This document shows positions 3,970 through 53,809 of a stretch of 53,809 bases of DNA, one piece after another (within the stretch, counting starts at the first letter, position 1; the number at the start of each line of letters is the position of its first letter). The notes under the pieces were generated by a model, which did no database searches, was not told the DNA's origin, and saw only the letters and a list, made by a program, of their open reading frames with translations. Source of the stretch: a bacterium (GTDB lineage Bacteria; ARS69); assembly GCA_025774805.1 (NCBI GenBank), contig JALGZR010000020.1:1-53809 (forward strand). The letters run 5' to 3'. The position numbers were made by a program, and so were the translations under genes.

Positions 3970-4067
3970 GGGGGCTCCGCTCGCGGAAGGCCGGGCTCGG
4001 TGCCTCTCAGCCTACACGGATCCCGATTCCCGAGATACCCGTTTCTCCTTTCGTGCGGCAGGGTCGT

Positions 4068-5456
4068 ATGACGAACCCCGACACGCGCCGAGGGGGACGG
4101 GGCACGGCGCGGCTCGCCGTGGGACTGGTCGCGCTCGCGCTGGCCGCGTGCGGGAGGTCCGAGCGCACGACACCCGCCGCGCGCGCCCTCCTCCTGATCA
4201 CGGTCGACACGTGGCGCGCCGACGCGTTCGGAGCCGGCGGCAATCCGGTGGTTCGAACGCCTGCCATCGATCGGTTCTTCAGGGGAAGCGTGCAGTTCTC
4301 CGAGGCCTACTCCCCGGTTCCCACGACGCTCGCCTCGCACGTCTCCCTGCTGACCGGGGCCTGGCCGACCCGCCACGGCGTGCCCGGCAATCTCTGGCCG
4401 GTCCCCGACGATCTCGTCACGCTGGCCGAGATCCTGTCCGAGCGCGGATTCGAGACGGCGGCCTTCCTGTCCAGTGCCGCGCTCGCCAAGGACTTCAATC
4501 TGGGTCAGGGCTTCGAGACCTACAACTTCAAGCCGGTCGCATACGCGCGGAACGACGCCCCGTGGCGTCCCGCGGCTCGGACCCTTCACCGCAGCCTGAC
4601 CTGGTGGGGAAAGACCGACGGACCACGGTTTCTCTGGACCCATCTCTGGGAGCCGCACTTTCCCTACGAGCCCGACCCCCGGCTCGCGCGACTCTACGAC
4701 CCCGAGTACGACGGTCCGGCCGACGGCTCCATGGACTACCTGATGAAGCTCTGGAAGCGACGGGAGCCGCCGCCCCGCGCCGACCGGGATCACGTCGTCG
4801 CGCTCTACCACGCGGAGATCACCGGACTCGATCGTGTGCTCGGGCAGTTCCTCGAGATCGCGAACACGGACGAGGCCGTCGTCGTGCTCACCAGCGACCA
4901 TGGGGAGAGCCTCGGGGAGCACGACCTGTCCTTCAAGCACGGCCCCCACGTCTTTCCCGGCGACGTTCGGGTTCCCCTGGCCGTCCGTGCCCCCGGTCTG
5001 AGCCCCGGGGTCAGTGCGGCCCTGGTGCGGACCATCGACGTGCCTCGAACCGTTCTCGATCTCCTCGGCGTCGATAGGGTCGAGCTCCCCGAGGAAGCGG
5101 GCGACCTCCTTGACTGGGCGGACGGTGGGGAGGGGCTCCCGGTCTTCGGGGTCGCCACCCAACCGTGGGAGATGATGGAGACCGACGTCTATCCCTGCAC
5201 CCCTCTGCAGCGCGTGGTGCGCACCCCTCGCGCCGCCTACGTCGAGACCCCGTTCCGACAGCGGCGCGCCTGGTACAATCGTGCGACCGACCCGGGAGAG
5301 CTGCGGGGGATGTCGGTCGACGGATCGGCACTGGCCGACTCGCTCCGCACCGAGCTCGACCGCTGGATCGAGAACGCCCGTTACCGCTCGGACTATCGTC
5401 CGGTCAAGGACGAGCGGCTCATCGACCAACTGAAGAGCCTGGGATATGTGGAGTGA
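4068..5456 (+). CDS. Sulfatase-like lipoprotein (alkaline phosphatase superfamily)
   Basis: 462 aa from the ATG at 4068 (an in-frame GTG lies at 4053). The signal peptide ends at a lipobox LALAAC (Cys28), so it is probably anchored in the periplasm or outer membrane. Metal-site blocks are visible: LLLITVDTWRADAFG at the start of the fold and LTSDHGESLGEH later. The nucleophile region reads PTTLASHVSLLTG. Aligned on LLTG, the position of the usual Cys/Ser is Thr and the usual Arg is His, so the formylglycine signature (C/S)xPxR is absent. It ends with the LKSLGYVE tail common in this group. The next gene overlaps it, forming an operon with the TPR and VCBS/ASPIC proteins. It could be a phosphohydrolase or phosphotransferase rather than a sulfatase. 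Confidence 0.85.
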   Translation: MTNPDTRRGGRGTARLAVGLVALALAACGRSERTTPAARALLLITVDTWRADAFGAGGNPVVRTPAIDRFFRGSVQFSEAYSPVPTTLASHVSLLTGAWPTRHGVPGNLWPVPDDLVTLAEILSERGFETAAFLSSAALAKDFNLGQGFETYNFKPVAYARNDAPWRPAARTLHRSLTWWGKTDGPRFLWTHLWEPHFPYEPDPRLARLYDPEYDGPADGSMDYLMKLWKRREPPPRADRDHVVALYHAEITGLDRVLGQFLEIANTDEAVVVLTSDHGESLGEHDLSFKHGPHVFPGDVRVPLAVRAPGLSPGVSAALVRTIDVPRTVLDLLGVDRVELPEEAGDLLDWADGGEGLPVFGVATQPWEMMETDVYPCTPLQRVVRTPRAAYVETPFRQRRAWYNRATDPGELRGMSVDGSALADSLRTELDRWIENARYRSDYRPVKDERLIDQLKSLGYVE

Positions 5457-6780
5457 CGATTCGAGGGAACGACCGCGCCGACGTGCCGGTCGCCTTCCCG
5501 CCACGGCTCGTCACCCGGTCCCCGCTCTCGCGGTCTCGGCGGTCGTCGCGCTGGGCTCGGCCTGCTCCCGGACAGAGACGGAGCCGCTGGCGTGGGCGGA
5601 CGAGGCGCTTCGCGAAGGTCGACTGACCGACGCCTGGCGCCTCTCCGGAGAGGCCGTGGACGCGGACTCGACCTCGGTGCCCGCGTGGATCCTGCGTTCC
5701 CGAATCGCTCTTCACTCGATGCGCACCGGCCCGGGACTCGTCGCGGCCGAAAGAGCGATCGCCCTCGACGCGACCGATGCCCGCGGTCACATCGTCCTGG
5801 CCCTCCTGGAGCAGCGGCGTCGTCGACATCTCGCGGCCCTCGCCGCCGCGGCGGAGGCGGTTCGGCTCGCTCCGGAGGACCCGAGGTGCCACATCGTGCA
5901 CGGTGAGCTTCTTTTCGGCGGAGGCGTCGTGGGAACGGCGGACCACGCGGAGGCGGAGGCCGCCTTCCGCGAGGCGCTCCGCCTCGCGCCGGAGAGCGAT
6001 CGCGCCCGCTACGGTCTGGGCAAGGCTCTCGTTCTCCAGGGGCGCCACGACGAGGCGGAGACCTTCCTCGACACCGTCGTCGAAGCGCTTCCTCACCACG
6101 CCGAGGCGTACTACTGGCGCGGACTGGTCCGCATGCGACAGCGCGAGTTGGAGGAGGCCGAGGCGGACTTCCGGCAGGCGACCGATCTCGATCCGTCCCT
6201 TGCGGCCGCCTGGTTCAATCGGGCCCGGGTGCTCCGCATGATGGGGCGCAACGCGGCGGCGGACGGCGCGACCTTCCGGCACGAGACGGCGAAGGAAGAG
6301 GACGAGCGATCGGAGTCGTACGAGATCTCCTACCACGGCGACACCGACGCTTCGGGTCCCGCGCTCCTCCTGGCGCGCTACCTGGCCTCGCGGGGACGGC
6401 TGGACGAGGCCCTCCGCGTCGCCGAGTCGTTTGCCGTCGATCATCCCGACATCGGACCGGCCTGGATCGTGCTCGCGGAGGTCGCGACGACCGCCACGTT
6501 CCTCGAGCTCGCCTCGGAGGCCGCCGAGAAGGCACTGGATCTCGCCTCCGGCAACCCGAAGGCGCTCGCTGCGGCGGAGGGGGCCGCGGGGCTGCGGCAA
6601 GCCCTCGCGCGGGACGATGAGGCCCAGCGGCGGATCCGCGAGAGCTTTCGCGGGTTCCTCCTCCGCCCCGGGGATCCGGCGGCGGCCGAGTCCTACGCCG
6701 CGCTTCTCGAGGAGACGGGGCAGGGCAAGCAGGCCGGGCAGGTGCGGGCGCGATCGGCGCGCTTCGGGGTGGAACCGTGA
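5446..6780 (+). CDS. TPR-repeat lipoprotein
   Basis: 444 aa. Its ATG lies 11 nt inside the preceding sulfatase-like gene. An arginine-rich start is followed by a hydrophobic stretch and a lipobox VALGSAC (Cys40), suggesting an exported, lipid-anchored protein. The rest is a string of about ten TPR-like helix pairs (for example AEAAFREALRLAPESDRARYG, AYYWRGLVRMRQRELEEAEAD). TPR arrays bind partner proteins, and no enzyme domain is visible. The tight overlaps on both sides suggest that it works with the sulfatase-like enzyme and the VCBS/ASPIC protein, perhaps in handling an extracellular substrate. Confidence 0.8.
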   Translation: MWSDDSRERPRRRAGRLPATARHPVPALAVSAVVALGSACSRTETEPLAWADEALREGRLTDAWRLSGEAVDADSTSVPAWILRSRIALHSMRTGPGLVAAERAIALDATDARGHIVLALLEQRRRRHLAALAAAAEAVRLAPEDPRCHIVHGELLFGGGVVGTADHAEAEAAFREALRLAPESDRARYGLGKALVLQGRHDEAETFLDTVVEALPHHAEAYYWRGLVRMRQRELEEAEADFRQATDLDPSLAAAWFNRARVLRMMGRNAAADGATFRHETAKEEDERSESYEISYHGDTDASGPALLLARYLASRGRLDEALRVAESFAVDHPDIGPAWIVLAEVATTATFLELASEAAEKALDLASGNPKALAAAEGAAGLRQALARDDEAQRRIRESFRGFLLRPGDPAAAESYAALLEETGQGKQAGQVRARSARFGVEP

Positions 6781-39620: not shown

Positions 39621-40193
39621 GTGCCCGATTCCTCCCGGGACTTCACCCGTCTCCTCGACCGCGCGAGCGCGGGCGACCCGACGGCCGCCCGCGAGCTTCT
39701 TCCTCTCGTCTACGAACAGCTTCGCGCCAGCGCGGCCCGGATGATGGCCGCCGAGCGACCCGACCACACGCTCCAGCCCACCGCCCTTGTCCACGAGGCG
39801 TACCTCCGGCTCGTGGGCCAGGGCCACACGACCTGGCAGAACCGCGCCCATTTCTACATGGCCGCCGCGGAATCGATGCGGCGCATCCTGATCGAGCACG
39901 CCCGAAGGCGGGGTCGGCAGAAGCGGGGGGGCGATTGGAGGCGCCTCCACTTCGACTCGGTCGACCTGGCCGGAAAAGACCTCCCGATCGAAGAAATCCT
40001 GTCCGTCGACGAGGCGATTCGGCGCTTGGAGGAACGAGACGAAAGGTTGGCGAAGGTCGTCCGGCTCCGGTTCTTCGCCGGCCTGAGCAACGGCGAGACC
40101 GCGGCGCTGCTCGGCGTCACGGACCGTACGGTCCGGCGCGACTGGACCCTCGCCCGCGCGTGGCTCTTCCGGGATCTCTCGGACGACTCCTGA
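39621..40193 (+). CDS. ECF-family RNA polymerase sigma factor
   Basis: 190 aa, GTG start. Region 2 is seen in ARELLPLVYEQLRASAARMM and the hallmark HTLQPTALVHEAYLRLVGQ of the TIGR02999-type ECF sigma factors common in Acidobacteria and Planctomycetes. Region 4 is LRFFAGLSNGETAALLGVTD with RTVRRDWTLARAWL as the recognition helix. It directs RNA polymerase to a small regulon. The kinase gene follows after 12 bp, the usual arrangement in which phosphorylation or the kinase's sensing arm controls this sigma type; no anti-sigma factor is visible. Confidence 0.92.
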   Translation: MPDSSRDFTRLLDRASAGDPTAARELLPLVYEQLRASAARMMAAERPDHTLQPTALVHEAYLRLVGQGHTTWQNRAHFYMAAAESMRRILIEHARRRGRQKRGGDWRRLHFDSVDLAGKDLPIEEILSVDEAIRRLEERDERLAKVVRLRFFAGLSNGETAALLGVTDRTVRRDWTLARAWLFRDLSDDS

Positions 40194-40205
40194 CGGAGGT
40201 CGAGC

Positions 40206-43200
40206 ATGCCAGGCTCCACTTGGGATCGGGTGAAGGAGATCTTCCACGCCGCACTCTCCCGGCCGGCGGAGGCGCGCTCGGCGTACGTCGCCCGGGCCTG
40301 TGGAGACGATGATCGTCTCCGCGCGGAGGTCGAGGCGCTTCTCGAGGCGCACGAGAACGCGGGGACTTTCCTCGGCGAGCCGAGGCGCGGCGCAGAGGCG
40401 GGACAGGACCGCTCTGCGTCCCTCGGCGAAGGACCCGGCACCCGGATCGGTCCCTACGAGCTCCTCCAGCTCATCGGAGAAGGCGGCTTCGGCTCGGTCT
40501 ACCTGGCGGAGCAGGACCGGCCGGTGCGCCGCCGCGTGGCGCTGAAGATCATCAAGTTGGGCATGGACACAAGGGAGGTCATCGCCCGCTTCGAGTCCGA
40601 ACGCCAGGCGCTCGCGATCCTGGACCATCCCAACATCGCCAAGGTGTTCGACGCCGGTGCGACAGAGCAGGGACGGCCGTACTTCGTCATGGAGCACGTG
40701 CCGGGCGTCCCGATCACGGACTACTGTGACCGGCACCGTCTGACCACCCGGGAGCGCCTGGAGCTCTTCATTCCCGTCTGTCAGGCCATCCACCACGCGC
40801 ACCAGAAGGGGATCATCCACCGGGACGTCAAACCGGGGAATACGCTCGTCGCGATCCAGGACGGGAAGCCGGTCCCGAAGGTGATCGACTTCGGGGTGGC
40901 GAAGGCGACGCATCGACGTCTGACGGAGCGGACGGTCTTCACCGAGCAGGGGCGCTTGATCGGCACTCCCGCCTACATGAGTCCGGAGCAGGCGGAGATG
41001 ACCGGACTCGACGTCGACACGACGACCGACGTGTACTCCCTCGGCGTGCTCCTGTACGAGCTGCTCGTCGGCGCTCTGCCCTTCGATCCGCATCAGTTGC
41101 TGGACGTCGGCCTGGAGGGGATGCACCGGATCATCCGGGAGGTCGACCCGCCCACGCCCAGCGCGCGGATCACGACCCTGGGGGATGGGGTCGGGGAGGT
41201 CGCGACCCATCGGCAGACGGTTCCCGAATCTCTCGTGCGGCAGATCCGGGGGGAGCTCGACTGGATCACGATGCGGGCCATGGAGAAGGACCGAACGCGG
41301 CGATACCCATCGGCCTCGGAGCTCGCGGCGGACATCCGCCGACACCTTCAGGACGAGCCGGTGCTCGCCAGCCCTCCCGGTGCGGCCTACCGTTCCCGGA
41401 AGTTCGTCAAGCGCAACCGAATCGCCGTCACGGCCGGATCCTTGGTGGTCGCGGCGCTCGTCACGGGCCTGGCGGTCTCGATGATCGGGTTCGTTCAGGC
41501 GAGCCGTCAGCGCGATCGGGCGGTGGAGGCCGAAGGGCAGGCCACGCGGCAGGCGTTTCTCGCGAACATCGCCGCCGCGGAAGCGGCCCTGGCCACGAAC
41601 GAGATCTCGGCCGTTCGACGGCACCTCGACGCGGTACCGGCCGATCTTCGCCACTGGGAATGGCGCAACCTCGATGCCGAGATCGACGGGAGCCTCGCGG
41701 TCTTGCGAGGGCACGAAGACCGGGTCTACGGCGTGGCGTTCAGCCCCGACGGCAAGACCATCGCCTCGGGATCGCGGGACAAGACCGTGCGTCTATGGGA
41801 TGCGTCGTCCCTCGAGGAGCTTGCCGTCTTTCGAGGGCACGAAGGCGTGGTCACCTCGGTGGCCTTCGGCCCCGGCGGCGCCCGGGTGGCCTCCGCGTCG
41901 AGCGACCGGACCGCGCGCCTCTGGGACGTCTCCTCCGGGGAAGTGTCGGCCGTCATGCGGGGCCACGAGGACGAGATTCTGTGCGTGGCGGTCAGCCCCG
42001 ACGGGACGCTGCTGGCGACGGCGGGCTCGCAAGATCAGACTATACGGCTGTGGGACACGGCCGCCGGTAACGAGCTTGCCGTCCTGATCGGCCACGAGAA
42101 CCGGATCTTCTCCGTCGCCTTCAGTCCGGACGGTTCGCGGTTGGTCTCGGCATCGCAGGTCGAGAACTCCGTGCGCATCTGGGATGTGACCAGCGGTGAG
42201 GACCTGCTCGTCCTCCCCGGGAGAGTCGGCGCGGTGTTCTCGGCGGAGTTCAGCCCGGACGGCAAGAAGGTGGCGGCCGCGCTTATGGATCAGACCGTCC
42301 GAATCTGGGACGCGTCCACGTTCGAGGAGCTGGCCATTCTGCGAGGGCACGCGAACAGCGTGGACCGCGTGGCCTTCAGTCCGGACGGAGAACTCCTGGC
42401 GTCGGCGTCGAGGGACCGAACCGTGCGCCTGTGGGACGTGTCCACGGGCCTCCAACGGGACGTTCTGCGAGGGCACGAGGGGTCCGTCGAAGCGCTGGCC
42501 TTCAGCCCGGATGGAACGCGTCTGGTATCCGCGTCGTGGGACCACACGCTCCGGGTCTGGGACGTGTCCGCCGGTACGTCGACGACTCTGCGAAGGCATG
42601 AAGAGGAGTATCCGTGCTATGACGCGGCGGCCTTCAGCGCGGACGGCACGCGCCTGGCGGCGATGAACGGATCGTCCGTCCGCGGCGACAACGCGGTCCA
42701 CATCTGGGACACGGCGACGGGCGAGGAGCTCGCCGTCCTTCGGGGCCACGAGGAATGGGGCATGTCCGTCGCCTTCGACCCGACCGGGGCGCGGCTCGCC
42801 TCGGCGGCGGTGGACAACATGATCCGCATCTGGGACGCGGAGACCGCCGAGTGCCTCTTGGTCCTGAAGAAGCACGAGGGAGGTGTCCCATCGGTGGTCT
42901 TCAGCCCCGACGGGAAGCGGCTGGCCTCCGCTTCGCACGACGAGACCGTGCGCATCTGGGACGTGTCGACCGGCGAGGAGCTGACCGTCCTGCGAAGACC
43001 CGAGGGCTCGACGTGGCCGGCTCTGGCCTTCAGTCCGGACGGCCTTCACCTGGCCTGCGCGTCGTATGACAAGACCGTGCGCATCTGGGACACCTCCTCG
43101 GGTGAGGAGTCGAGCGTCCTTCCGCATCCGGATCGCGTCACTGCCGTGACGTTCAGCCCGAACGGAACGCGGCTGGCCTCGGCGGTCACGGGCGACAACT

Positions 43201-44258
43201 CGATACGCATCTGGGATGCGTCGACCGGAGCGGAATTGGCCGTCCTCCGCGGTCACGAGCACACCATCCTCTCCCTGGCGTACACCCCGGACGGAACGCG
43301 TCTGGCCTCGGCGTCCATGGACCGGACCGCGCGCATCTGGGACGCGAGCCGCGGTGAGCTCCTCCGTGTTCTCCGGGGACACGAGGCGTGGGTCACCTCC
43401 GTGACGTTCGACGCCGACGGCACGCGCCTGGCCTCGTCGTCTCGCGACGGGACCGTGCGCATCTGGCACACGGAACGGTTCCGGGTCCGGGATCGGAAGC
43501 GTCAGGCGATACTCGCGGCGCGATCGGCCGTGAAGCCGGTCGTCGAAAACCTCTGGGAGCAAACCGTCGACGCGAAGTCGATTGCGCGGCGACTTCGTGG
43601 AGATGCTTCCCTCACGGAACGGCAGCGCCGAGCCGCCTCGAGTCTGCTGCTCCGCAAGTCCGCACGGCTCCAGGAGTATGTCGATGCGGTGTTCGCGAAG
43701 AAGGTGTTCACCCACGACGTCGTGACGGAATTGACGGCGGACCCCTCCCGGGACCCGGGCTTCCTGTACAAGGCGGTCCGGCGGGCCCGCGCGACCGGCG
43801 ACGAAGCATCGCGGATCCATAGCGACAGTTGGAATCTGGTCCGCTTCCCCGGCGGGGATGCGGAATCCTACGAGATCGGATTGCGCGGGGCGGAAGCGGC
43901 GGTCGCCCGGGAATCGGAGAACGTCGTCTTCCTGGGCACGCTGGGCATGGCCCAGGTTCGGAACCGCCGCCATGCAGAAGCATTGGCCACGCTCGCCCGG
44001 TGCGAGCAGTTGCGCCGCGAACATGAGCTCGCGAGCGTTCCCCGCGACATGGCCGCTCAAACCCTGGCGCTCTTCGGGCTCGGGCGGACCGAAGAGGCAC
44101 GCCGCAGCTACCGGAGGCTCGAAAAGATCATGCGGGATCCGGTGGAGGCGTGGGTCTACTACGAGGAAGAGACGGCGCTGTTCGAAGAGTGCCGGCGTCT
44201 GCTCGCGGGGTCCGATGTTCGGACCGGATCGTCGGAAGACACCGGAGCCGGGGAATAG
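40206..44258 (+). CDS. Transmembrane serine/threonine kinase with 14 WD40 repeats
   Basis: 1350 aa. Residues ~82-380 are a Hanks-type kinase: [23 protein letters not shown], the catalytic [11 protein letters not shown] (His205, Asp207) and DFGVAK with APE-like AYMSPEQ, so it should be active. One membrane helix ([20 protein letters not shown], near residue 420) is followed by 14 WD40 repeats (about 497-1085), from [20 protein letters not shown] to [18 protein letters not shown], enough for two seven-bladed propellers. A helical, TPR-like C-terminal region ends the protein. Repeats 5, 8 and 12 are diverged or carry insertions. The propellers are outside the membrane if the kinase is inside. 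Confidence 0.93.
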
Positions 44259-44295
44259 CGGAACGCAAGACGCCGAACCGGCGTGCAAAGGCGCT

Positions 44296-44315
44296 CCGCC
44301 GGATTGAACCGGCGG
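44296..44315. terminator. Hairpin between kinase and secreted-protein genes
   Basis: CCGCCGG, ATTGAA, CCGGCGG: a perfect 7-bp stem 37 bp past the kinase stop. No T-tract follows. Together with the independent ribosome-binding site of the next gene it hints that the next gene is transcribed separately. Confidence 0.4.
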
Positions 44316-44399
44316 GGGACGATCCCGTACGATCGGCCCCGCGGCATCCGCCTCAGGGATGCCCGAGAGACGCGTTCTCCCACCGTAAGGAGATCTCCC

Positions 44400-46388
44400 G
44401 TGTCCGCCTCCGTTCCCCGGGCGATTCCGCCCCTGGTTCTCACCCTTCTGATCGTCTCCGTTCCTCCCGCCCTCGCCGATCCCGTGATCAGCGAGATTCG
44501 TATCGACAATCCGGGCGATGACACCGACGAGTACTTCGAGCTGGCGGGTGCCCCCTTCGAAAGCCTCGACGGTTTGGCCTACGTGGTGATCGGGGATGCC
44601 GATTACTCCGCCGGGCACTACGGGGTGGTCGAGACGTTCATACCGCTCGACGGATTCACCCTCGGCGCCAACGGCTTCCTGGCGATCGCCAACGATCCCT
44701 TCCTGGCCGTCTGCACGGGCTACTCACCCGTTGCCTCCTTTGCCAAGTTCGAGAACGGCGACAACGTCACGCACCTGCTCGTCCGCGGCGCCTCCGGATT
44801 GCTCGGGGAGGACCTCGACTGGGACGACGACGGCACCCTGGACATGGAGCCCTGGTCCGAGATCCTCGACTGCGTCGCGCTGATCGAGCGGACCTCGGGC
44901 GGGGATCCGGTGTACTGCGATCACACGGTGGGCCCCGACCGCAAACACACCCTGCCCATCGGAGGACCGCGCGAGTACGTGCCGGCCCACGTCGCGCGGT
45001 GCGGACCCGGCTGGTACGTCGGGAATCTTTACGGGGATCCTCCGTGCGCGAACGACTCCCCGGGCGGGCCCAATGTCATCTGCGGCAACGTCCCCCCCCG
45101 GGTCCCCGTGCTCACCTCCCGGCCCTGCGCCCCCGAGTCGACCGACCCCGTGGTCGTCGAGGCCACCGTCCTGGACTCCAACGGCGATCTGAGCACGGTG
45201 TTCCTCCACTACAGAGTGTACGGTGCGCCGGACTACGCAACGGTCGCGATGGCCCCCGCGGGAGGGCAGACGTGGGCGGCGACGATCGGGCCGTACCCGG
45301 ACCAGACCCTCCTGGAGTTCTACGTGCAGGCGACGGACGTCGCGCAGAACACGACGACGAACCCCTCCTCCGCGCCCTCGTATCCGAGATCCTTTCGGAT
45401 CGGACTCACGCCCATCCCGGAGATCCAAGCCTCCACGGGACCGGTCGACGAATGCCTCTACCCTTCCGATCTCGACGGGCAGTCCGTGAACGTGACGGGG
45501 ATCGTCACCCACCGGGCCGGGGAGTTCAGCCCCCGGTTCTTCTACATCCAGGAGGGAACCGAGCCGTTCTCCGGCCTGAAGGTCTACGTGCCGGCCGAGG
45601 ACTTCGTTCCCGAGCTCGGCGATCGCGTCGTGGTCTCCGGAGTCGTCGAGGAGCGGCGATGCCAGACGCAGCTCCGCCTCTTCCGGGGATGCGGGCAGGT
45701 CGTCGGCAGCGAGCCCGTTCCGATTCGCACGCTGGCCCACATGGAGGAGATCAACACCGAGCCGAACGAGAGCATGCTCGTCACGGTGGACGGGCCGATC
45801 ACGGTCACCAGCGCATGGGACACCACGCTGGCGCGGAACGGGAGAGAACCGAGCTTCCTCCTGCGGAGATTCGAGATCTCGGCCGGCATGTACAGCGTCT
45901 GGGTCGGGGATGACACGTTCTACCCGGACGGCCTGGGCTACTCCTACGAACCGAACATCCAGGACGGGCTGCGGTGGATCACGGGGATCGTGGGCATGTC
46001 CCCCGAGGGCGCGTCCTACGGGATCCTCCGGCTCGAGCCGCGTCGCGATCCCGACGTGTGGCTCCGGACCTTGGACGTTCCGGATGAAAGCGAGCCGGTG
46101 GTCGTCGACGCGCTGCGTCTCGATCCGGCTCGTCCCAGTCCCACGCGCGCCGTCACCACGATCGGGTTCGAGGTTCCCGTTGCGGGGCGCGTGACTCTGC
46201 GCATCTACGACGTGGCGGGCCGTCTCGTGCGCGAGCTCTTCGAAAGGGAGTACGAGGGTCCTGCGCGCGGAGAGACCGTCTGGGACGGCCGCGACGACGC
46301 GGGACGACCGGTCGCCGCAGGCGCGTACCTGTACCGCCTGGAGGTCGGCGAGCGATCGGCGACCCGGAAGATCATGCTCCTGCGGTGA
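44400..46388 (+). CDS. Secreted lamin-tail-like protein with sorting tail
   Basis: 662 aa from the GTG at 44400, which has AAGGAG 7 nt upstream. A signal peptide ends at PPALADP. Residues ~25-130 resemble a lamin-tail domain (VISEIRIDNPGDDTDEYFEL, GLAYVVIGDADYSAG), then an Ig-like section (about 230-330), an OB-fold-like section (VNVTGIVTHRAGEFSPRFFY, LGDRVVVSGVVEERRC) and a FlgD-Ig-like sorting domain at the end (IYDVAGRLVRELFE, AAGAYLYRLEVGERSATRK). Probably exported and surface-attached or released. Function unknown; lamin-tail domains often accompany extracellular nucleases, but no nuclease motif is visible. Confidence 0.82.
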   Translation: MSASVPRAIPPLVLTLLIVSVPPALADPVISEIRIDNPGDDTDEYFELAGAPFESLDGLAYVVIGDADYSAGHYGVVETFIPLDGFTLGANGFLAIANDPFLAVCTGYSPVASFAKFENGDNVTHLLVRGASGLLGEDLDWDDDGTLDMEPWSEILDCVALIERTSGGDPVYCDHTVGPDRKHTLPIGGPREYVPAHVARCGPGWYVGNLYGDPPCANDSPGGPNVICGNVPPRVPVLTSRPCAPESTDPVVVEATVLDSNGDLSTVFLHYRVYGAPDYATVAMAPAGGQTWAATIGPYPDQTLLEFYVQATDVAQNTTTNPSSAPSYPRSFRIGLTPIPEIQASTGPVDECLYPSDLDGQSVNVTGIVTHRAGEFSPRFFYIQEGTEPFSGLKVYVPAEDFVPELGDRVVVSGVVEERRCQTQLRLFRGCGQVVGSEPVPIRTLAHMEEINTEPNESMLVTVDGPITVTSAWDTTLARNGREPSFLLRRFEISAGMYSVWVGDDTFYPDGLGYSYEPNIQDGLRWITGIVGMSPEGASYGILRLEPRRDPDVWLRTLDVPDESEPVVVDALRLDPARPSPTRAVTTIGFEVPVAGRVTLRIYDVAGRLVRELFEREYEGPARGETVWDGRDDAGRPVAAGAYLYRLEVGERSATRKIMLLR

Positions 46389-46426
46389 GGGAGATCCGCC
46401 CCGGAGCGCGAATAGTGCAACCCTCA

Positions 46427-46570
46427 TCGAGGAAAGGAAGGGAGGGTCCGGAGGCTCGCAGCGCTGCTGCATGCGAAGACGGAGCTCGAGGCTGCGGCCA
46501 CCACTCCGTCGGGGCAAGGCCCCCACTCCCACGCTCTCCAACTCCCCTCCGGACCCCCTTCCTTCCTCGA
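46427..46570 (+). ncRNA. RT-associated structured RNA candidate closed by a 25-bp stem
   Basis: 46427-46454 (TCGAGGAAAGGAAGGG then AGGGTCCGGAGG) pairs with 46546-46570 (CCTCCGGACCCCC then TTCCTTCCTCGA): 25 base pairs with a 1-nt and a 2-nt bulge. Inside the ~91-nt loop are three smaller hairpins: 46458-46470 (GCAGC/GCTGC), 46478-46510 (GACGGAG/CTCCGTC, with an inner GGC/GCC) and 46511-46523 (GGGGC/GCCCC). The stem ends 10 nt before the RT start and abuts its ribosome-binding site. It begins 38 nt after the preceding stop. The layout, a branched RNA closed by flanking complementary arms just upstream of an RT, is retron-like, but no long msd hairpin is present. It could alternatively be a translation-control leader or an attenuator. 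Confidence 0.65.
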
Positions 46571-46580
46571 AGGCTCGCCG

Positions 46581-47918
46581 ATGACGTTTCTTGATCGTCT
46601 GGGAGATCCCGTTCGGATCCGGCGGCAGCTCGACCGGCTGGCGGCGAACCGGCGGCGGACGGGCATCCGTCTCTCCGGGAACGGCGATCCGTCGCTGGCC
46701 CGGCTTCTGTTCCGCGCCCCGGAGCTGGCGCGCCGGCTGGGACGTGACATCCGTCACGGCGCGTATCGCCCCGCGCCCGCCCGGATCCGCCCGGCCGAGC
46801 TCGACAAGCTCCGCGATCTCTGCGTGTTTCGCCCCGCCGATCTCATCGTTCAGGGAGTGCTTGCCGGCTTGCTCTCCGAAGCCATGGAGCCTCTCCTCCC
46901 GGCCCGGCTCTTCTCCTACCGGCGCCGCCGGTCCTCCTGGATGGCGGTGCGTGACTTCGCGTCGTACGTGCGGGAGCACCGCCGCGCGAACCCCGACCCG
47001 CAATCCCGTGGACTGTTCGTGCTGCGCGCCGACGTCCGAGACTACGGTGAGTCCATTCCGATGGACGAACGGTCGGCGATCTGGACGCAGGTGGGCCGGA
47101 TGCTCGGACTTTCTGCAAACGATGACGCGTGGCCTCTGGTGCGCGAGCTGGTGCGGCCCGCGATCCTCACCGGCGAGGGCGCCGTGATCCGCCCGGAGCG
47201 CGGCGTCGCCACCGGCTCCCCGGTGGCCACCGCCCTCACGAATCTCTATCTGACGGGTCTCGACCGGCATCTACAGGAGATCGCCGGAGGGTTCTACGCG
47301 CGCTACGGCGACGACTTCCTGTTCGCCCATACCGACCCGGAGGTGGCTCGCGAGGCGCGGCGCCTGGCCACGAGGTATCTGGAGGAGCACGGTCTCGAGC
47401 TGAACCGGGAGAAGTGCCGGCTGCTCCACTTCAACGGCGCCGGACGCCCGGGTCCGGAAGGGAGCGGCCTGCCCGGGAGCTCGCGGGTCACCTACCTCGG
47501 ATGCAACATCAGCTTCCGGGGCACCGTCGGTCTCTCCGAGCCGAAGCGGCGCGAGACGTTGCGGGAGATCCGGCGCCGGGTTCAGCGGACGGCCGAGGTC
47601 GTCGCCCTCCGCGAGCCTGACGAGCAAGGCCGGCTCCTCTGCGCCACGGTCGATACCGCGCTCGATCCGCGCGTCGAGACCTCGGTTCCCGCGAGCGCGG
47701 TCCTGGCGGCCGCGGTCACGGACCGGCGGCAGCTCAAGGACTTGGACTTCCGGATCGCCCGCACGATCGCCGAGGCGCTCGCGGGCCGGCACGGTTCCCG
47801 ATCCTTCCGGCGCTACCCCTACCGGAAGCTCCGTGCCGAGTGGGGACTGACGTCGCTCGTCGTGCAGAGGAACCGGGGTCGGGTGTCGGCGAGGTCGGCG
47901 GAGAAGGGGGCGGCATGA
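46581..47918 (+). CDS. Reverse transcriptase, unclassified (not retron, not DGR by signature)
   Basis: 445 aa. GAAGG lies 7 nt before the ATG. RT blocks are complete: fingers (DKLRDLCVFRPADLIVQGVL, residues 75-94, and FSYRRRRSSWMAVRDF), motif A RADVRDYGESIPMD with Asp151, motif B GVATGSPVATALTNLYL (208-224), catalytic RYGDDFLFAH (YGDD, 242-245), motif D GLELNREKCRLLHF (271-284) and motif E VTYLGCNISF (303-312). A thumb-like helical C-terminus ends with RKLRAEWGLTSLVVQRN. There is no NAxxH or VTG as in retrons, no maturase X/zinc or endonuclease domain as in group II introns, no RNase H or integrase. Motif A has Gly in place of the aromatic residue before the Ser-Ile. Catalytic Asp residues are all present, so polymerase activity is expected. 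The stop overlaps the next ATG. Confidence 0.92.
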   Translation: MTFLDRLGDPVRIRRQLDRLAANRRRTGIRLSGNGDPSLARLLFRAPELARRLGRDIRHGAYRPAPARIRPAELDKLRDLCVFRPADLIVQGVLAGLLSEAMEPLLPARLFSYRRRRSSWMAVRDFASYVREHRRANPDPQSRGLFVLRADVRDYGESIPMDERSAIWTQVGRMLGLSANDDAWPLVRELVRPAILTGEGAVIRPERGVATGSPVATALTNLYLTGLDRHLQEIAGGFYARYGDDFLFAHTDPEVAREARRLATRYLEEHGLELNREKCRLLHFNGAGRPGPEGSGLPGSSRVTYLGCNISFRGTVGLSEPKRRETLREIRRRVQRTAEVVALREPDEQGRLLCATVDTALDPRVETSVPASAVLAAAVTDRRQLKDLDFRIARTIAEALAGRHGSRSFRRYPYRKLRAEWGLTSLVVQRNRGRVSARSAEKGAA

Positions 47919-49912
47919 GCGGCCTGGACCGGTGGCTCGCCCGGGAGGCGGCACGGGAGCGGCGACGTCCCGTCCTGGAGGAGTGTCTGATCGGCGGGCG
48001 GGCCGGCCGGTACGTCCTCCACCGGCTCCGCCTTGTCGCGGGAGCCCGGCTTCTCGGCTACGCGGTGCACGTCGTCGAGTTCCTCTTCCTGTTGCGGGTC
48101 TTCACCGACGAGGGGCTCGGTCTCTCCTTCGCCGCGCGCAACTTCGTGCTCCTCGCGGGCGCGTCTTGGTGGGGCGCGCTGGAGGTGTTGCGAACCCGCA
48201 TCCGGCGGGAGGATCCGAATCCTGCCGACCGTGTCGAGGTCGAGCGCTGGCTCACGCTCTCGTTGATCGCCGCGGTGGGACTTCTCGCCGTGACCGGAGT
48301 CGGGCTCGGGGCGGCCTGGCTCCGGAGCGGGCGACCTCCCGGCATCCTCGAGCTCTACTTCGGGATCACCTTCGCCCGCCTCTCGGTCGACCTCGTCGCG
48401 CGGACGCTCTACTCGGGGATCTACGCCCGGCGGCGGGTCTACCGGCCGGCCCTCTGGATTCTGGGGCTGGAAATGCTCGGACTGGCCAGCGCTCTTCTCT
48501 TCTGGGGCGTGCTCGGACTGTGGGCGTTTCCCGTCGCGCTCGCGATTTCCACGGCGGCCTCCCGTGCCGCCACGGTCCACTTCACGGCCCGCGCCTACCG
48601 GATGTTGCGCATCCCCGTTCCCCGGTGGACGCGCCTTCGCCGTCCGCGTCTGACGAGCTCGGATCTCGGGGCGATGGCCGTCGCCGGCGCATCGAACGCC
48701 GCCACCCGGCTGGGCTCGGTGCTGGTCCTGTTCCTGGTGCTGCGGGGGGTGCGGGGCGCGGAGGCCCTTCTCCAGTGGCTCCACGTTCTCGCCCCACTGC
48801 TCGCGACCGCCGGGTCGTGGGCCCAGGTCTTCTATCCCGATTTCAAGCGGTTGGAGGACCGGGCCGCCGGCGCCCTTCGGCGGAGACTCGAGAGGGCGCT
48901 CGCGCGGAGTAGCTTCGTCGTGGGAACGGCGCTCGGCGCGCTCGCCGTCGGCACCTCCCTCGGCCTCACCGGCCGCGTCCACCCCGAGGTCCTGGCGACC
49001 GGGCCCCTGCTCGTCGTGCAGTCCTACGTCGGGCAGCTCCACCTTCGCTTTTTCGCCCAGGACCGTTTCCGACGGCTCCTCGCCGGAGGGCTGGCTCTCA
49101 CGCTCGGCATTCCCCTGCTCGGGCTCGCGATTCCGGGGGAGGGGCAGGCGCCGCCGGCGGTGAGTCTCGTGCTCGGAACGGCCGCCGCGATCGCCCTGTC
49201 CGGGGTGGTGATGCGTGCCTGGCCCTTCGCCGACGGGCGCCGGCAGCCGCACGGAGAGGGAATCTGGGCGTGGCTGGAGTCGTTGGCGGCGAATCCCGGG
49301 CCGGTCCGGATCGGGCGCGTCACGATGGGGGATTCCCGGGCCTTCGAGCGCGCGGCGGTGCTCGCGCGAATCGAGGAGTGTCTGGAGCTCGCGGGGAAAG
49401 CGGTGGAACGGGGAAGGACGATTCTCTGGTTCGAGACCGGGGATCGCCCGGTCATGAATCCGGATCAAGTGCTGGTATGGGGCGCGGGCCTGATCGACGA
49501 CGTTTGCGTTTCGGACCCGCAGCCCTCCGGAAGGGAGGCCGCGCGGAGCGAGGAAGGGGGCCGTAGGATCGGGAGGCCCCGCGAAGGAAGCGTCGAACCG
49601 ATCCCCGCCCTCGTGGCCCGGCTTCGCGCCGCGTGCCCCGGCGGGCTCGTCGTCGACCTGGAGTCCGGAACGTGCGACCGCGCCGTCCGTGACCTCTCTC
49701 CCCGGGAGCGTCAGGACGTGTGGCGCCGCGCCCGCCTGGACGCCCTCGGAAAGCGCGTCCGGACGCCCGACTCCCCCTTTGAGGTGCGCTCGGTCGTGGA
49801 CGGCGGCGAGATCCGCCTCCTCTTCCTCGTGCCTCGGAAGCTCGACGCCGCGCAACGACGGCTCTGGGCCGAGACGGTGAGGTCGGGCAACTGGGTGCGG
49901 GCCGTGGCCTGA
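47915..49912 (+). CDS. RT-linked flippase-like polytopic membrane protein with soluble tail
   Basis: 665 aa. The ATG lies in a 4-nt ATGA overlap with the RT stop, so the two are translationally coupled. Residues ~40-435 contain about 11-12 membrane helices (e.g. 41-62, 72-92, 112-135, 145-165, 178-213, 249-277, 283-305, 333-352, 360-380, 388-406, 414-433), with a layout and Arg-rich loops like polysaccharide flippases of the MOP/Wzx type. The last ~210 residues are soluble (SRAFERAAVLARIEECLELA, GRTILWFETGDRPVMNPDQV, RLLFLVPRKLDAAQRRLW), with no family I recognise. It may be an effector or anchor for the RT and its RNA. The open frame extends upstream to 47840, inside the RT gene, but the overlap start is more plausible. 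Confidence 0.82.
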   Translation: MSGLDRWLAREAARERRRPVLEECLIGGRAGRYVLHRLRLVAGARLLGYAVHVVEFLFLLRVFTDEGLGLSFAARNFVLLAGASWWGALEVLRTRIRREDPNPADRVEVERWLTLSLIAAVGLLAVTGVGLGAAWLRSGRPPGILELYFGITFARLSVDLVARTLYSGIYARRRVYRPALWILGLEMLGLASALLFWGVLGLWAFPVALAISTAASRAATVHFTARAYRMLRIPVPRWTRLRRPRLTSSDLGAMAVAGASNAATRLGSVLVLFLVLRGVRGAEALLQWLHVLAPLLATAGSWAQVFYPDFKRLEDRAAGALRRRLERALARSSFVVGTALGALAVGTSLGLTGRVHPEVLATGPLLVVQSYVGQLHLRFFAQDRFRRLLAGGLALTLGIPLLGLAIPGEGQAPPAVSLVLGTAAAIALSGVVMRAWPFADGRRQPHGEGIWAWLESLAANPGPVRIGRVTMGDSRAFERAAVLARIEECLELAGKAVERGRTILWFETGDRPVMNPDQVLVWGAGLIDDVCVSDPQPSGREAARSEEGGRRIGRPREGSVEPIPALVARLRAACPGGLVVDLESGTCDRAVRDLSPRERQDVWRRARLDALGKRVRTPDSPFEVRSVVDGGEIRLLFLVPRKLDAAQRRLWAETVRSGNWVRAVA

Positions 49913-49949
49913 CGGTCGGATCTGAGGGTCGATGGCGCCCACAAGAAAA

Positions 49950-49979
49950 GGAGGCGAAGTGGCCAGTACCTTCGCCTCC
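49950..49979 (-). terminator. Intrinsic terminator facing the minus strand
   Basis: GGAGGCGAA pairs perfectly with TTCGCCTCC around a 12-nt loop. On the minus strand the stem is followed by TTTTCTTGTG, the classic T-rich tail; on the plus strand the tail is absent. This suggests a minus-strand transcript arriving from 50.0-50.3 kb, although no minus-strand gene is evident there. It may also act on the RT operon in reverse, which would be weaker. Confidence 0.6.
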
Positions 49980-50015
49980 CCGATCCTGTGCGGCAGAGCC
50001 GCTCTCTCGATAGTA

Positions 50016-50085
50016 AGGGACGATCCCTTCGGAGATCCCGGAAGCACACCTCCGAGCACCGGTCTTTCGTCGCGAGATCGTCCCT
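50016..50085. ncRNA. Branched fold, possible RNA of unknown kind
   Basis: AGGGACGATC (50016-50025) pairs perfectly with GATCGTCCCT (50076-50085), enclosing an inner hairpin TCGGAG/CTCCGA. The fold is possible on either strand. It lies between the terminator and the AT-rich segment, consistent with part of a minus-strand transcript ending at 49950. No known family recognised. Confidence 0.35.
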
Positions 50086-50120
50086 CGGACGTCCGGTGAT
50101 TATGCAAGGGTGGGGCCGCG

Positions 50121-50141
50121 TTTCCCCGATTTCGGGGGAAA
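50121..50141. other. Small stem-loop
   Basis: TTTCCCC and GGGGAAA flank a short GATTTCG-type loop: a 7-bp stem with one extra G. Function unknown. Confidence 0.3.
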
Positions 50142-50413
50142 CTGGCAAAGAGTTGAAAATCAAGAGATTAGAAGTGAAGCCCGAGGACGACGGAACCTCC
50201 GGAAGCGCCGGCAGAATGTCCTCTTTCGGAAACAGGAATCTGATCCTGTCCTCGTTCGTGGACACTGATTCGGGAATGGACAACCAGTCATTTGTCTAGT
50301 ATTCTGATTTCGTTCGGTGGGCGGCAGCGAGAGCGATGGCCACCGTCGGGTGGCTAGGCGTGCGGCGGGAAGGTCGGCAGCTTGGCGGCGAATCGGTCCA
50401 AGGGGAGTGAGCC

Positions 50414-50665
50414 TTGATCGAGAAAGTCCGGGAGCCCATCGAAGTGCTCTCCCGTTTCAAGGAGGGGAAGATCCAGCCTCTCCGTTTCCGGTGGCGGGGC
50501 CGCGTCTTCACGATCACGGAGACGACCGGCACCTGGATCAAGCGGGTCGGAGAGCATCAGGTCCACTACTTCTCCGTGGGTGCCGGCACCCGCGACTACT
50601 ACGAGATCAGCTATTCCGCCCGGACCTCGGGATGGTCCCTCGAGAACATCTACCTCGAGGGGTAG
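50414..50665 (+). CDS. DUF6504 family protein
   Basis: 83 aa, TTG start with AGGGGAG 6 nt upstream. The pattern QPLRFRWRGRVFTITETTGTW, WIKRVGEHQVHYFSVGAGTR and DYYEISYSARTSGWSLENIY fits DUF6504, small proteins commonly encoded beside Y-family DNA polymerases. Here dinB starts 3 nt after the stop, so they form an operon. The function is unknown; the neighbour suggests a part in lesion bypass. Confidence 0.75.
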   Translation: MIEKVREPIEVLSRFKEGKIQPLRFRWRGRVFTITETTGTWIKRVGEHQVHYFSVGAGTRDYYEISYSARTSGWSLENIYLEG

Positions 50666-50668
50666 GCG

Positions 50669-51868
50669 ATGGATCGGGACGGGTGGAGCCGGGAACCGGA
50701 CGCCGGTCTCCGTGAGCTCAAGATCGCGCACGTCGACATGGACGCCTTCTTCGCTTCGGTCGAGGAGATGGTCCGTCCTCCCCTGGCGGAGCACCCTCTC
50801 GCGGTGGGAGGAGCCCCGGGAAGTCGTCATGGGGTCGCGACCACCGCGAACTACCGCGCCCGGGTGTTCGGCGTGGCCTCGGGGATGCCCCTCGGGAAGG
50901 CGTTCCGCCTCTGCCCCGACCTGGTCACCATTCCCGTGGACGGGGGGAAGTACCTTTACTTCTCCCTCCAGGTGCTCAAGGTCCTCGATCGCTTCACGCC
51001 GGCCGTCGAGCCCACCTCGGTCGACGAGGCGTTTCTCGACCTGAGTGGACTCGAGCGTCGGTGGTCCGACCCGCGAGATCTCGCGAACGCGATCCAGCGG
51101 GAGATTCGCGAGGACGTCGGAGTCACGGCGTCCATCGGACTCGGCCCCACGAAGATGATCGCGAAGATCGCCTCGGGGCTGAACAAGCCGTCCGGAATCA
51201 CTCTGCTCACCCGCGAGGGTTTCCGCCGGTTCCTGGGCGAGCGTCCGATCCGGGCGCTCTGGGGGATCGGGGCGAGCACCGAGCGGGCGCTCGGGAGATT
51301 GGGGATCCACCGGGTGCGGGACCTCGCCACATCTGACCCCACCCGCCTGAACGACCGATTCGGAGTGCTCGGCCTCTGGCTTCACGCCTCGGCGAACGGT
51401 GAGCTCGACGATCCCGTGACCCCCTACTGGGACTCTCCCGCGGCGAAGTCGTTCGGTCACGAGCGCACCCTCGAAGAGCTCGTCTCCGACCGGCGCGAGA
51501 TGATTCACATTCTGCGCGGCCTCTCCGAGAAGGTCGCGCGCCGCGTTCGGAACCGGCAGGTCAGCGGGAGAACGGTCACTCTGAAGGTGCGTTTCCCCGA
51601 TTTCGTGACGCCTCTCCGCAGCCTGACCCTTCCTCTGGGGGTCGACGACGGTCGGGAGATCGCGAGGACCGCGGCGTTTCTTCTCGATCGGGTCCCCTTT
51701 CGGGGAAGACCGGTACGGCTCCTTGGTGTGTCGGTTTCGAACGTGGAGGAGGGGAGCCCGGGAGCTCAGGAGTCCTTCCTGGGGGATGTCGCGCGACGGC
51801 GCCGACTGATCCGGGTCGTCGACCGGATCCAGAACCGCTGGGGAGAAGGCGTGATCGGGCCCGGCTGA
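50669..51868 (+). CDS. dinB: DNA polymerase IV (Y family)
   Basis: 399 aa translesion polymerase. Catalytic carboxylates are in HVDMDAFFASVEEMV (about residues 20-34) and TSVDEAFLDLSGL (about 116-128). The palm/thumb motifs GLGPTKMIAKIASGLNKPSG and LWGIGASTERALGRLGI (HhH) and the little-finger region KSFGHERTLEELVSDRREMI follow. Length fits DinB (350-410 aa). A C-terminal beta-clamp binding motif is not clear. DUF6504 lies just upstream in the same operon. Confidence 0.95.
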   Translation: MDRDGWSREPDAGLRELKIAHVDMDAFFASVEEMVRPPLAEHPLAVGGAPGSRHGVATTANYRARVFGVASGMPLGKAFRLCPDLVTIPVDGGKYLYFSLQVLKVLDRFTPAVEPTSVDEAFLDLSGLERRWSDPRDLANAIQREIREDVGVTASIGLGPTKMIAKIASGLNKPSGITLLTREGFRRFLGERPIRALWGIGASTERALGRLGIHRVRDLATSDPTRLNDRFGVLGLWLHASANGELDDPVTPYWDSPAAKSFGHERTLEELVSDRREMIHILRGLSEKVARRVRNRQVSGRTVTLKVRFPDFVTPLRSLTLPLGVDDGREIARTAAFLLDRVPFRGRPVRLLGVSVSNVEEGSPGAQESFLGDVARRRRLIRVVDRIQNRWGEGVIGPG

Positions 51869-52007
51869 CCTGCTTCCCCCGGGGATCTTCCCCGAGGACA
51901 TCGACACCGGAATCCCGATCGAGGAGCTGGCCGGGTTGAGCGAACTTCCCGGGGAGACCGTCTCCCTGCCGAACCGGATCGTGTACGAGGAGGCCGTTCG
52001 CCATTAG
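51855..52007 (+). CDS. Small possible ORF after dinB
   Basis: In a different frame from dinB, 51855-52007 reads LLPPGIFPEDIDTGIPIEEL then AGLSELPGETVSLPNRIVYE and EAVRH before a stop. Third codon positions are strongly G/C, as in real genes here. No ATG/GTG/TTG opens the frame early, and its 5' end overlaps the dinB end. It could be a small gene with an unusual start, or the remnant of a gene fused or frameshifted onto dinB. Function unknown. Confidence 0.3.
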   Translation, partial: SGPADLLPPGIFPEDIDTGIPIEELAGLSELPGETVSLPNRIVYEEAVRH

Positions 52008-52105
52008 GCTGCGAGCGGCAATGTGACTTTCCAGCGCCCCGAGGTGTCCGGGGTGGCCGGGAGATACCCGATCATCGACGCCAACCTGAGGAGGAGGAGT
52101 TCCCG

Positions 52106-53179
52106 ATGAGCCGAGTCTTCGCCGGTGTCCTGCTTTCGGCGCTGCTGCTGCCTTTCGGCGCCGTCGCCCAGGACGAAACCGACGGTCCCCCCGAGCCGGG
52201 CCCCTGGAGCTACGGAGTGGTCGGCGGGCTGAACATCGCCCAGAGCGCCTTCAGCGACAACTGGGCGGGCGGTGACAAGGGCACGATCAACTGGGTCGCG
52301 AACGCCGATCTGAGCGCCGAGCGCCAGGTGACCCCCGAGTTCCACTGGAGCAACAAGCTCGAGCTGGCCTACGGACAGACGGCCACCCAAGTCTCGGTCA
52401 CCGATACGCTGCCCTCCGGAGCGGTCATGATCAAGAGAGACAAGGAGTGGTCGCGTCCCGACAAGACCACCGACCGGATCTTCTTCGAGTCGCTGGGCCG
52501 GTTCACGCTCGACCTGTGGGTCGACCCGTACGTCTCCGCCCAGCTCGAGGCGCAGTTCGTCGACGAGAGCGATCCCATCGGGAGTCTGCTGTTCAATCCG
52601 TTGAAGATCACGGAGTCGGCCGGAATCGCCCGCGTCTTCCGCAAGACGGAGGAGGAGGAGCTCACGAGCCGGGTCGGGTTCGGTTTCCGCCAGTCGATCG
52701 GGCGCACGTTCACCGACGCCACCGGCGACGAGACCGAGAGCTTCACCACGAGTGACGGCGGGTTCGAGTTCCGGACCGACGCCAAGAAGCCGCTTCACGA
52801 GAAGCGCATTCTCTACCAGGGCCGGCTCAAGGTCTTCTACCCCGTGTTCTTCAGCCAGTCCTCCGATCTCGAGGACTTCGACGCGCTCGCGATCGCGGCC
52901 GACCCGTTCCGGGAGGAGGTCGCCGACTACTGGAAGAGTCCCGACGTCGACTTCCTGAACACGTTCTCCGCCGAGATCACGAGCTGGATGTCGGTGATCC
53001 TCTTGGTGCAATGGGTCTACGACAAGTACGACGCCGCGACGAACGTGGATCTCGCGAACTGGGACCCATCGGATCCAGCGACGCACGCGCCTGTCATCAG
53101 TGAGATCGAAGGCGGCATCCGCAAGTCGGGGCAGTTCAAGCAGACGCTCGCGATCGGGCTGACGTATCGGTTCCTGTAA
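52106..53179 (+). CDS. DUF3078-like outer-membrane beta-barrel protein
   Basis: 357 aa with AGGAGGAGG about 8 nt upstream. The signal peptide ends at AVAQDE. The early strand LNIAQSAFSDNWAGGDKGTI with INWVANADLSAERQ matches the DUF3078 family described mainly from Bacteroidetes. Alternating aromatic strands continue to a C-terminal TYRFL, in keeping with a BAM-assembled barrel. Function unknown. A full copy of the dispersed repeat begins 37 bp after the stop. Confidence 0.82.
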   Translation: MSRVFAGVLLSALLLPFGAVAQDETDGPPEPGPWSYGVVGGLNIAQSAFSDNWAGGDKGTINWVANADLSAERQVTPEFHWSNKLELAYGQTATQVSVTDTLPSGAVMIKRDKEWSRPDKTTDRIFFESLGRFTLDLWVDPYVSAQLEAQFVDESDPIGSLLFNPLKITESAGIARVFRKTEEEELTSRVGFGFRQSIGRTFTDATGDETESFTTSDGGFEFRTDAKKPLHEKRILYQGRLKVFYPVFFSQSSDLEDFDALAIAADPFREEVADYWKSPDVDFLNTFSAEITSWMSVILLVQWVYDKYDAATNVDLANWDPSDPATHAPVISEIEGGIRKSGQFKQTLAIGLTYRFL

Positions 53180-53216
53180 CGGCGGAAATCGTCGTATCCA
53201 GGGCGAAAACTCGGTG

Positions 53217-53397
53217 CTAGCCTGCATATCTCACCAGCCTCTGCTGTGGCAGCGGCAAGCCGCGTCTGGCGTCGTCGTTGCGGCGCTTCCGCCCCGCGAC
53301 GGGGCTACGGCCCCGCCTCGGGCGAAAGCCCCCCATCTCCTCGCCAGACACGACTATCCACAGCCTCGCGACGAGCCTGGTGAGAAATGCAGGCTAG
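53217..53397 (+). mobile_element. Full-length 181-bp inverted-repeat element, copy 2
   Basis: Begins CTAGCCTGCATATCTCACC and ends GGTGAGAAATGCAGGCTAG. The interior is closely similar to copy 1 (10812-10993) with a 1-bp length difference, both in plus orientation. It lies in the 321-bp gap between the barrel gene and mscL; the remaining 103 bp before mscL contain its AGGAGG ribosome-binding site and probably its promoter. Confidence 0.78.
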
Positions 53398-53500
53398 CAT
53401 CGGCGGCGACATCCGGGTGGATCTCGCCGTCGATCTCGCATCGTTCCGTCAGACGTTTCCTTGACCCCGGTTTTCCGGATTCCCGAGGAGGATTGACCAG

Positions 53501-53809
53501 ATGTCCATGATTAAGGAGTTCAAGGACTTCGCCATGCGCGGGAACGTCGTCGACATGGCGGTCGGTATCGTGATCGGAGGTGCGTTCGGCAAGATCGTCA
53601 GCTCGTTCGTCAAGGACGTCCTCATGCCGCCGATCGGCATTCTGCTCGGTGGGGTCGACTTCTCCGAGCTCGCCGTCACCCTCAAGCAGGCCACGGAAGA
53701 GGCGGAGGCGGTCACGGTCAACTACGGTGTGTTCATCAACACGGTCATCGACTTCCTGATCATCGCCTTCGCGATCTTCATGGTGATCAAGGCGATGAAC
53801 TCGCTGAAG
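53501..53809 (+). CDS. mscL: Large-conductance mechanosensitive channel (cut by window edge)
   Basis: First 103 residues visible. [40 protein letters not shown] and [17 protein letters not shown] are the amphipathic N-helix and first membrane helix of MscL, and [20 protein letters not shown] begins the second. MscL is an inner-membrane pentamer that opens under high tension to release solutes at osmotic downshock. GAGGAGG lies about 10 nt before the ATG. The C-terminal helix is outside the window. Confidence 0.95.

Follow-up and report, generated by a model that had tools for sequence, protein, structure and literature searches.

The window analyzed here, a 53,809-nucleotide stretch of bacterial DNA, contains a folded intergenic element that is directly followed by genes for a reverse transcriptase (RT) and a membrane protein (Table 1). 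A structure of the RT was predicted with a pLDDT of 93.4, and the gene upstream of the element occupies the place at which relatives of the RT carry a surface lipoprotein. Further upstream (39621-44258), a 190-aa ECF-type sigma factor-like gene lies next to a gene for a 1350-aa Ser/Thr kinase with WD40-like repeats (both read by eye, the latter with kinase-type PADLOC matches), while genes for a DUF6504 protein and then a Y-family DNA polymerase with IMS domains are found 3′ of the module (50414-51868). PADLOC returned generic kinase matches only around the locus and no known defense genes; a defense role therefore receives no support from the neighborhood. Neither a T-run terminator nor a sigma-70-like promoter was seen between 46200 and 46800, and the minus strand contains an open reading frame of 848 aa (44724-47270) that overlaps the upstream gene and the RNA and reaches into the RT gene; this frame is probably spurious in this GC-rich sequence.

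Table 1. Coordinates of features in the window and of neighboring genes in related loci (L numbers)
Feature	Coordinates	Strand	Remarks
Secreted-looking protein	44283-46388	+	FlgD-like C terminus (FlgD_ig)
P1 5′ arm, closing stem	46427-46454	+	Outer part polypurine; bulged A46435 and 46443-46444
P2 hairpin	46456-46476	+	RNA fold
P3 hairpin	46478-46510	+	RNA fold; tip C-UGCG-G (C46492-G46497)
P4 hairpin	46511-46523	+	RNA fold; GGGGC-AAG-GCCCC
Pyrimidine-rich unpaired stretch	46524-46545	+	RNA fold; from P4 to P1 3′ arm
P1 3′ arm	46546-46570	+	Outer part polypyrimidine
Reverse transcriptase	46581-47918	+	445 aa; RVT_1, E = 1.2e-15; FYARYGDD; C-terminal Ser425
Membrane protein	47915-49912	+	665 aa; ATGA overlap with RT stop; MOP-superfamily flippase fold
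Lipoprotein-like genes	L022:3506-5761; L024:3696-5765; L025:4649-5818; L029:2638-5736; L032:4233-5735; L033:4221-5732; L034:3353-5668; L035:3365-5758; L037:3094-4419; L039:865-3060; L042:4659-5753; L043:3790-5751; L044:4094-5662		
PLD-domain protein genes	L014:8661-10499; L046:5426-6673; L047:8909-10405; L048:8888-10366		

Folded as RNA, the 144-nt segment at 46427-46570 reached a minimum free energy (MFE) of −80.8 kcal/mol, compared to a mean of −58.6 (SD, 4.2) for 200 dinucleotide shuffles, none of which was as stable (z = −5.30); the element thus passed the comparison with shuffled sequence that the earlier note had named as a check. The fold also agrees with what that note had described ahead of the RT, namely, a 25-bp closing stem with polypurine/polypyrimidine arms and two small bulges, a loop of about 91 nt holding three hairpins, and a spacing of 10 nt to the RT start. 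P1 joins 46427-46454 to 46546-46570 through 25 pairs, the 91 nt between the arms (46455-46545) contain three hairpins of at most 10 pairs each, and 10 nt separate the end of P1 from the ATG of the RT gene (46581). A weak Shine-Dalgarno-like motif, GAAGG (46569-46573), contacts the end of the P1 3′ arm. Because the opposite strand folds comparably (−90 kcal/mol), the strand of the RNA was taken from the relatives and not from energy. Scanning 46000-48200 with Rfam gave no family above chance and no group II intron RNA. A direct repeat, ACTCC..ACTCC, within the pyrimidine-rich stretch lies where a DRT10-type template would be expected, 3′ of a stable stem-loop, but was not significant on shuffling (P = 0.29) and the relatives display no such enrichment; an A-B-A′ template repeat of the DRT10 type is not claimed for the window.

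Relatives of the window RT were found at 33 further loci, in Myxococcota, Bdellovibrionota, Coxiellaceae, Planctomycetota, and others. A single scan of genome contigs yielded 35 loci, of which 31 clearly belong to the family and span Myxococcota, Bdellovibrionota (Oligoflexia, Bacteriovoracaceae), Coxiellaceae, and Anammoxibacter, and additional relatives occur in genome G299 and its phylum. Genome G094 encodes homologues of both proteins in the same order, with the RT (36% identity, E = 3e-71) preceding the membrane protein (E = 2.7e-27); contigs C156, C108, and C172 of this genome contain two UG26-type RT matches in addition to the RT-flippase module. Two scans of viral contigs recovered no relative of the window RT, and phage and plasmid records held remote RTs only. 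The window RT nests inside the family with support of 85/80 in one tree and 96/90 in another, and Ser425, which immediately precedes the C-terminal helix, is kept in 30 of 33 RTs.

Most of these loci share an RNA plan 5′ of the RT that consists of P1, P2, a longer P3 with a conserved tip (GAGA[CU][CU]GCGGUCU and variants), and another hairpin, after which a short pyrimidine-rich stretch leads into a P1 3′ arm finishing near the RT. This layout is kept ahead of RTs with just 20 to 43% identity. Across 33 loci, the 190 nt 5′ of the RT folded with a mean z of −1.77 (14 of 33 below −2), compared to a mean of 0.14 for coding controls from the same loci (0 of 33 below −2); no clear RNA was seen ahead of the RT in L026, L027, L028, L031, L049, and L051. 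The covariation among homologues that the earlier note had proposed to look for is present among the RNAs of the relatives, in alignments that omit the divergent window sequence. In an alignment of P3 from 11 relatives, 11 of 13 pairs were changed on both sides, with 40 double-change cells (14 in shuffles) and 84.6% of cells paired (61.2% in shuffles), and the covariation score was 0.685, compared to 0.259 in shuffles and 0.05 to 0.25 once the partners were slid. The signal held after the addition of L025 and P2, the latter poorly aligned (55% paired). P1 pairing differs too much between clades for a family-wide alignment; within four Bacteriovoracaceae, 59 of 60 P1 pair cells were paired, and both partners had changed in 4 of 15 pairs. 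The Coxiellaceae P2 stem displays two apparent compensatory pairs, as read from the alignment, and the 3′ half of their RNA is nearly invariant. Since a whole-length MAFFT alignment gave no usable consensus, the covariance model was limited to P2 and P3. When L025 was left out of this model, it was nonetheless found at the right place (E = 0.037). The family models did not find the Bdellovibrionota and Coxiellaceae RNAs, and they found nothing in DRT9, DRT10 (L076), or UG26 loci.

One locus, L037, bears directly on whether the element serves the RT gene as a leader. Here, the upstream lipoprotein gene stops 6 nt before the RT gene, so that no room is left for an RNA 5′ of the RT. The best remaining match to the model, which was built without L037, lies directly after the membrane gene (E = 0.13, not significant alone), where the sequence folds with a z of −3.75 and forms a perfect 13-pair closing stem (GGAGAAGGAGGCA/TGCCTCCTTCTCC) around the P3 motif. 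This placement past the membrane gene favors a stand-alone noncoding RNA (ncRNA) over an element that acts chiefly as a leader of the RT. The earlier note had suggested that the stem could gate RT translation, and a cis-acting leader would use P1 at the ribosome-binding site, switched by a ligand, a protein, or the RT, to set that translation. In favor of the suggestion, the P1 3′ arm touches the sole Shine-Dalgarno-like motif in the window locus, and in many loci no more than about 70 nt lie between the end of the stem and the RT start. However, the relocated RNA of L037 is unable to lead an RT, and the spacing between RNA and RT varies widely from locus to locus; we consider a cis-acting leader unlikely, although loci other than L037 may still use gating in cis.

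The window RNA itself is an outlier of this family. It scored 4.7 bits against the covariance model, which is not significant, at the correct place (46454-46507), and its P3 is the counterpart of the family hairpin GA[CU][CU]GCGGUC but lacks the GAGA..UCU flanks; a C-UGCG-G tip on at least three stem pairs arose at P = 0.037 in shuffles of the window element. The RNA is assigned to the family by its position, orientation, operon, P1/P2/P3/P4 plan, and P3 tip. Its divergence from the family model, together with a GC-rich genome in which the opposite strand folds equally well, would suit a polypurine/polypyrimidine inverted repeat without RNA function, whether chance structure or relic. Such a repeat is very unlikely, however, given that no shuffle matched the stability of the element and that its position and architecture match those of covarying RNAs in the same type of operon.

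The second gene of the module encodes a protein whose model (pLDDT 85.8) combines a MOP fold at approximately residues 20 to 445 with a C-terminal alpha/beta domain. Structural matches concern the MOP domain and barely cover the C-terminal domain: the membrane domain aligned to WzxE with a Z of 23.7 over 381 residues and, over some 380 to 410 residues, to MATE proteins with a Z of about 20 to 22 and to MurJ with about 18 to 19. The protein thus resembles MOP flippases and transporters (WzxE, MATE, MurJ) in the fold of its membrane domain, but differs from them in the extra domain, in having an RT as an obligate neighbor, and in having no match in Pfam or NCBIfam; PADLOC gave none either. In relatives, the protein is usually 570 to 760 aa long and follows the RT directly wherever the contig allows. 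The RT-adjacent membrane gene is backed at the sequence level except in L014, L020, L041, L046 to L048, L051, and L052, where a multi-helix protein in its place was counted by position. The window protein scored 668 bits against the family profile, and a profile search of 290 genomes found the membrane gene in only 2, both times with a neighboring RT.

Thirteen relatives carry, immediately ahead of the RNA and in the same orientation, a gene for a lipoprotein-like exported protein, and two more have one nearby. These proteins vary in their N-terminal repeats (EGF-like, Asp/Thr-rich, ASH/Ig-like) and share a cysteine-containing C-terminal domain (SLRRRF ... CDAxVxNxxGAGVCL) that matched no Pfam family. 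This conserved domain had no match in the window genome, including the secreted-looking protein upstream of the element. Other neighbors were observed 3′ of the module, namely, a PLD-domain protein after the membrane gene in another clade of the RT family, a different common protein of about 710 aa in the same place in L041 and L052, and, immediately past the module in a Coxiellaceae locus (L036:9191-10450), a gene for a chitinase-like protein of glycosyl hydrolase family 18.

To place the RT among known systems, its model and sequence were compared with characterized RTs. Foldseek returned DRT9 as the first match, and VIA-align superposed the two with a Z of 24.5 over 397 residues (RMSD, 3.5), in an alignment that spans residues 1 to 444. 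Group II intron, G2L4, and diversity-generating retroelement (DGR) RTs reached Z values of 28 to 29 in VIA-align. Broad kinship with class 2 UG RTs, which are related to DRT9, DRT10, and UG26, lack alpha-Rep, and have a cis-encoded ncRNA, is possible: DRT9 is the leading Foldseek match and a cis RNA is present, but group II and DGR RTs match just as well by VIA-align Z. A group II intron was rejected, as the RT scored 81 bits on TIGR04416 against a cut-off of 300 and no intron RNA was detected. Among PADLOC DRT-type profiles, UG26 scored best (77.7 bits), but true UG26 RTs score about 500, carry YARYSDD or YARYADD, and lack, in the two loci read, a gene for a membrane protein 3′ of the RT. In a tree with four UG26/DRT10/DRT9 references, the RT family formed a separate clade (100/98), with long branches as a caveat, and UG26 membership, which the PADLOC rank had suggested, was dropped.

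Two immune systems offer closer parallels. DRT10 (UG17) combines a 137-nt decorated stem-loop ncRNA, an RT, and a membrane (SLATT) protein, and Eco3DRT10 uses a C-terminal serine, S456, as its priming residue (PMC12632851). The window module is similar in that a structured ncRNA of some 140 nt, a large stem-loop bearing smaller ones, precedes an RT and a membrane protein, and the RTs of its family likewise conserve a C-terminal serine. Because such a serine primes DRT10 (PMC12632851), Ser425 is a candidate priming residue by analogy. The window RT nevertheless scored 34.3 bits on the UG17 profile, compared to 509 for a true member; the partner has a MOP-type flippase fold in place of SLATT, and the decorated stem-loop next to the DRT10 operon is matched by the window element in architecture only. 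DRT9 (UG28), in which an RT and an ncRNA make poly-dA (PMC12483538; PDB 9nlv, 9ioa, 9vma), resembles the module in its nearly full-length RT fold match and in an ncRNA scaffold of several stem-loops. It differs in profile score (55.7 bits for the window RT on the Drt9 profile, 695 for a true member), in that no universally conserved U-rich template was seen in the window family, and in its partner, an occasional SLATT protein as opposed to one with a flippase fold.

These comparisons also bear on a retron-like ncRNA, in which P1 would serve as a1/a2 of an msr/msd and the RT would make msDNA. The earlier note had likened the arms to retron a1/a2 logic without the msd hairpin; its long, RT-tied closing stem and the missing hairpin were both borne out, and the placement of a structured RNA, its ends complementary, immediately ahead of the RT does recall retrons, but the retron logic itself is now less supported. 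The RT lies far below retron cut-offs (the retron St85 model gave 31.9 bits where its cut-off is 235, and the PADLOC retron out-group model gave 30.8 bits), the window element has no long msd hairpin, and the best retron RT aligned to the model with a Z of 19.7 over 292 residues, such that the nearest full-length immune-RT structure is that of DRT9. A retron is thus highly improbable. A DGR with the upstream surface protein as target and the intergenic element as template repeat, which the order of surface protein, RNA, and RT in 13 loci and the fold of a DGR RT (8ub7, Z = 28.2) might suggest, is scarcely credible, as it is contradicted by the absence, within the surrounding 13.8 kb (40001-53809), of any near-repeat of the 500 nt that precede the RT, by the absence of TR/VR-like pairs in the relatives tested except L056, whose RT is remote, and by the covarying fold of the RNA. 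In L056 (Rokuibacteriota), an 87- to 106-bp stretch is repeated at least four times ahead of the RT (3140-5462), and this locus could be a different kind of retroelement.

We therefore favor, with a probability of roughly 0.65, the reading that 46427-46570 either is a gene for an ncRNA or yields one by processing of the operon transcript, and that this RNA assembles with the RT into a ribonucleoprotein (RNP) and constitutes one module with the RT and the membrane protein. The module is best read as a variant of the ncRNA-dependent, class 2 UG-like RT systems, one whose membrane partner is unusual. From small RNAs, class 2 UG systems produce genes, homopolymers, and telomere-like repeats. In the systems published, cis-encoded ncRNAs serve as templates (PMC12483538, PMC12632851, PMC13174585), and the DRT papers propose DNA products that act on membrane proteins. 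By the same logic, P1 and the hairpins P2 to P4 would form a scaffold that is bound by the RT and puts an unpaired stretch into its active site; here, by analogy to DRT10, we infer that the pyrimidine-rich stretch at 46524-46545 is the candidate template region. Copying of this stretch by the RT, with Ser425 as a possible primer, would yield a cDNA that is either repetitive or short; this cDNA or the RNP itself may then control the membrane protein, probably in an anti-phage or envelope-stress response. The exported partner of many relatives and the flippase fold leave open a role at the envelope.

A bolder proposal is that these loci represent an undescribed RT class that belongs to none of the PADLOC UG groups. 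Its RT, guided by the ncRNA, would make a cDNA signal controlling a MOP-flippase-type membrane protein, joined in many species by a secreted surface lipoprotein with a conserved unannotated domain, and the result would be a nucleic-acid-gated envelope system and not a classical intracellular abortive-infection device. We offer this proposal tentatively and consider it possible but doubtful as a whole. A literature search confined to open-licence papers turned up no account of an RT partnered with a flippase-fold protein.

Overall, the RNA-RT-flippase module seems to be an unstudied relative of the antiviral RT systems of bacteria. It is conserved and widespread, its membrane partner is of a new type, and many species have an exported partner protein as well. 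It adds an RNA family, a candidate priming residue in Ser425, and, in the relocated RNA of L037, a natural experiment, and it offers a new setting in which to test how DNA made by an RT acts on membrane proteins.
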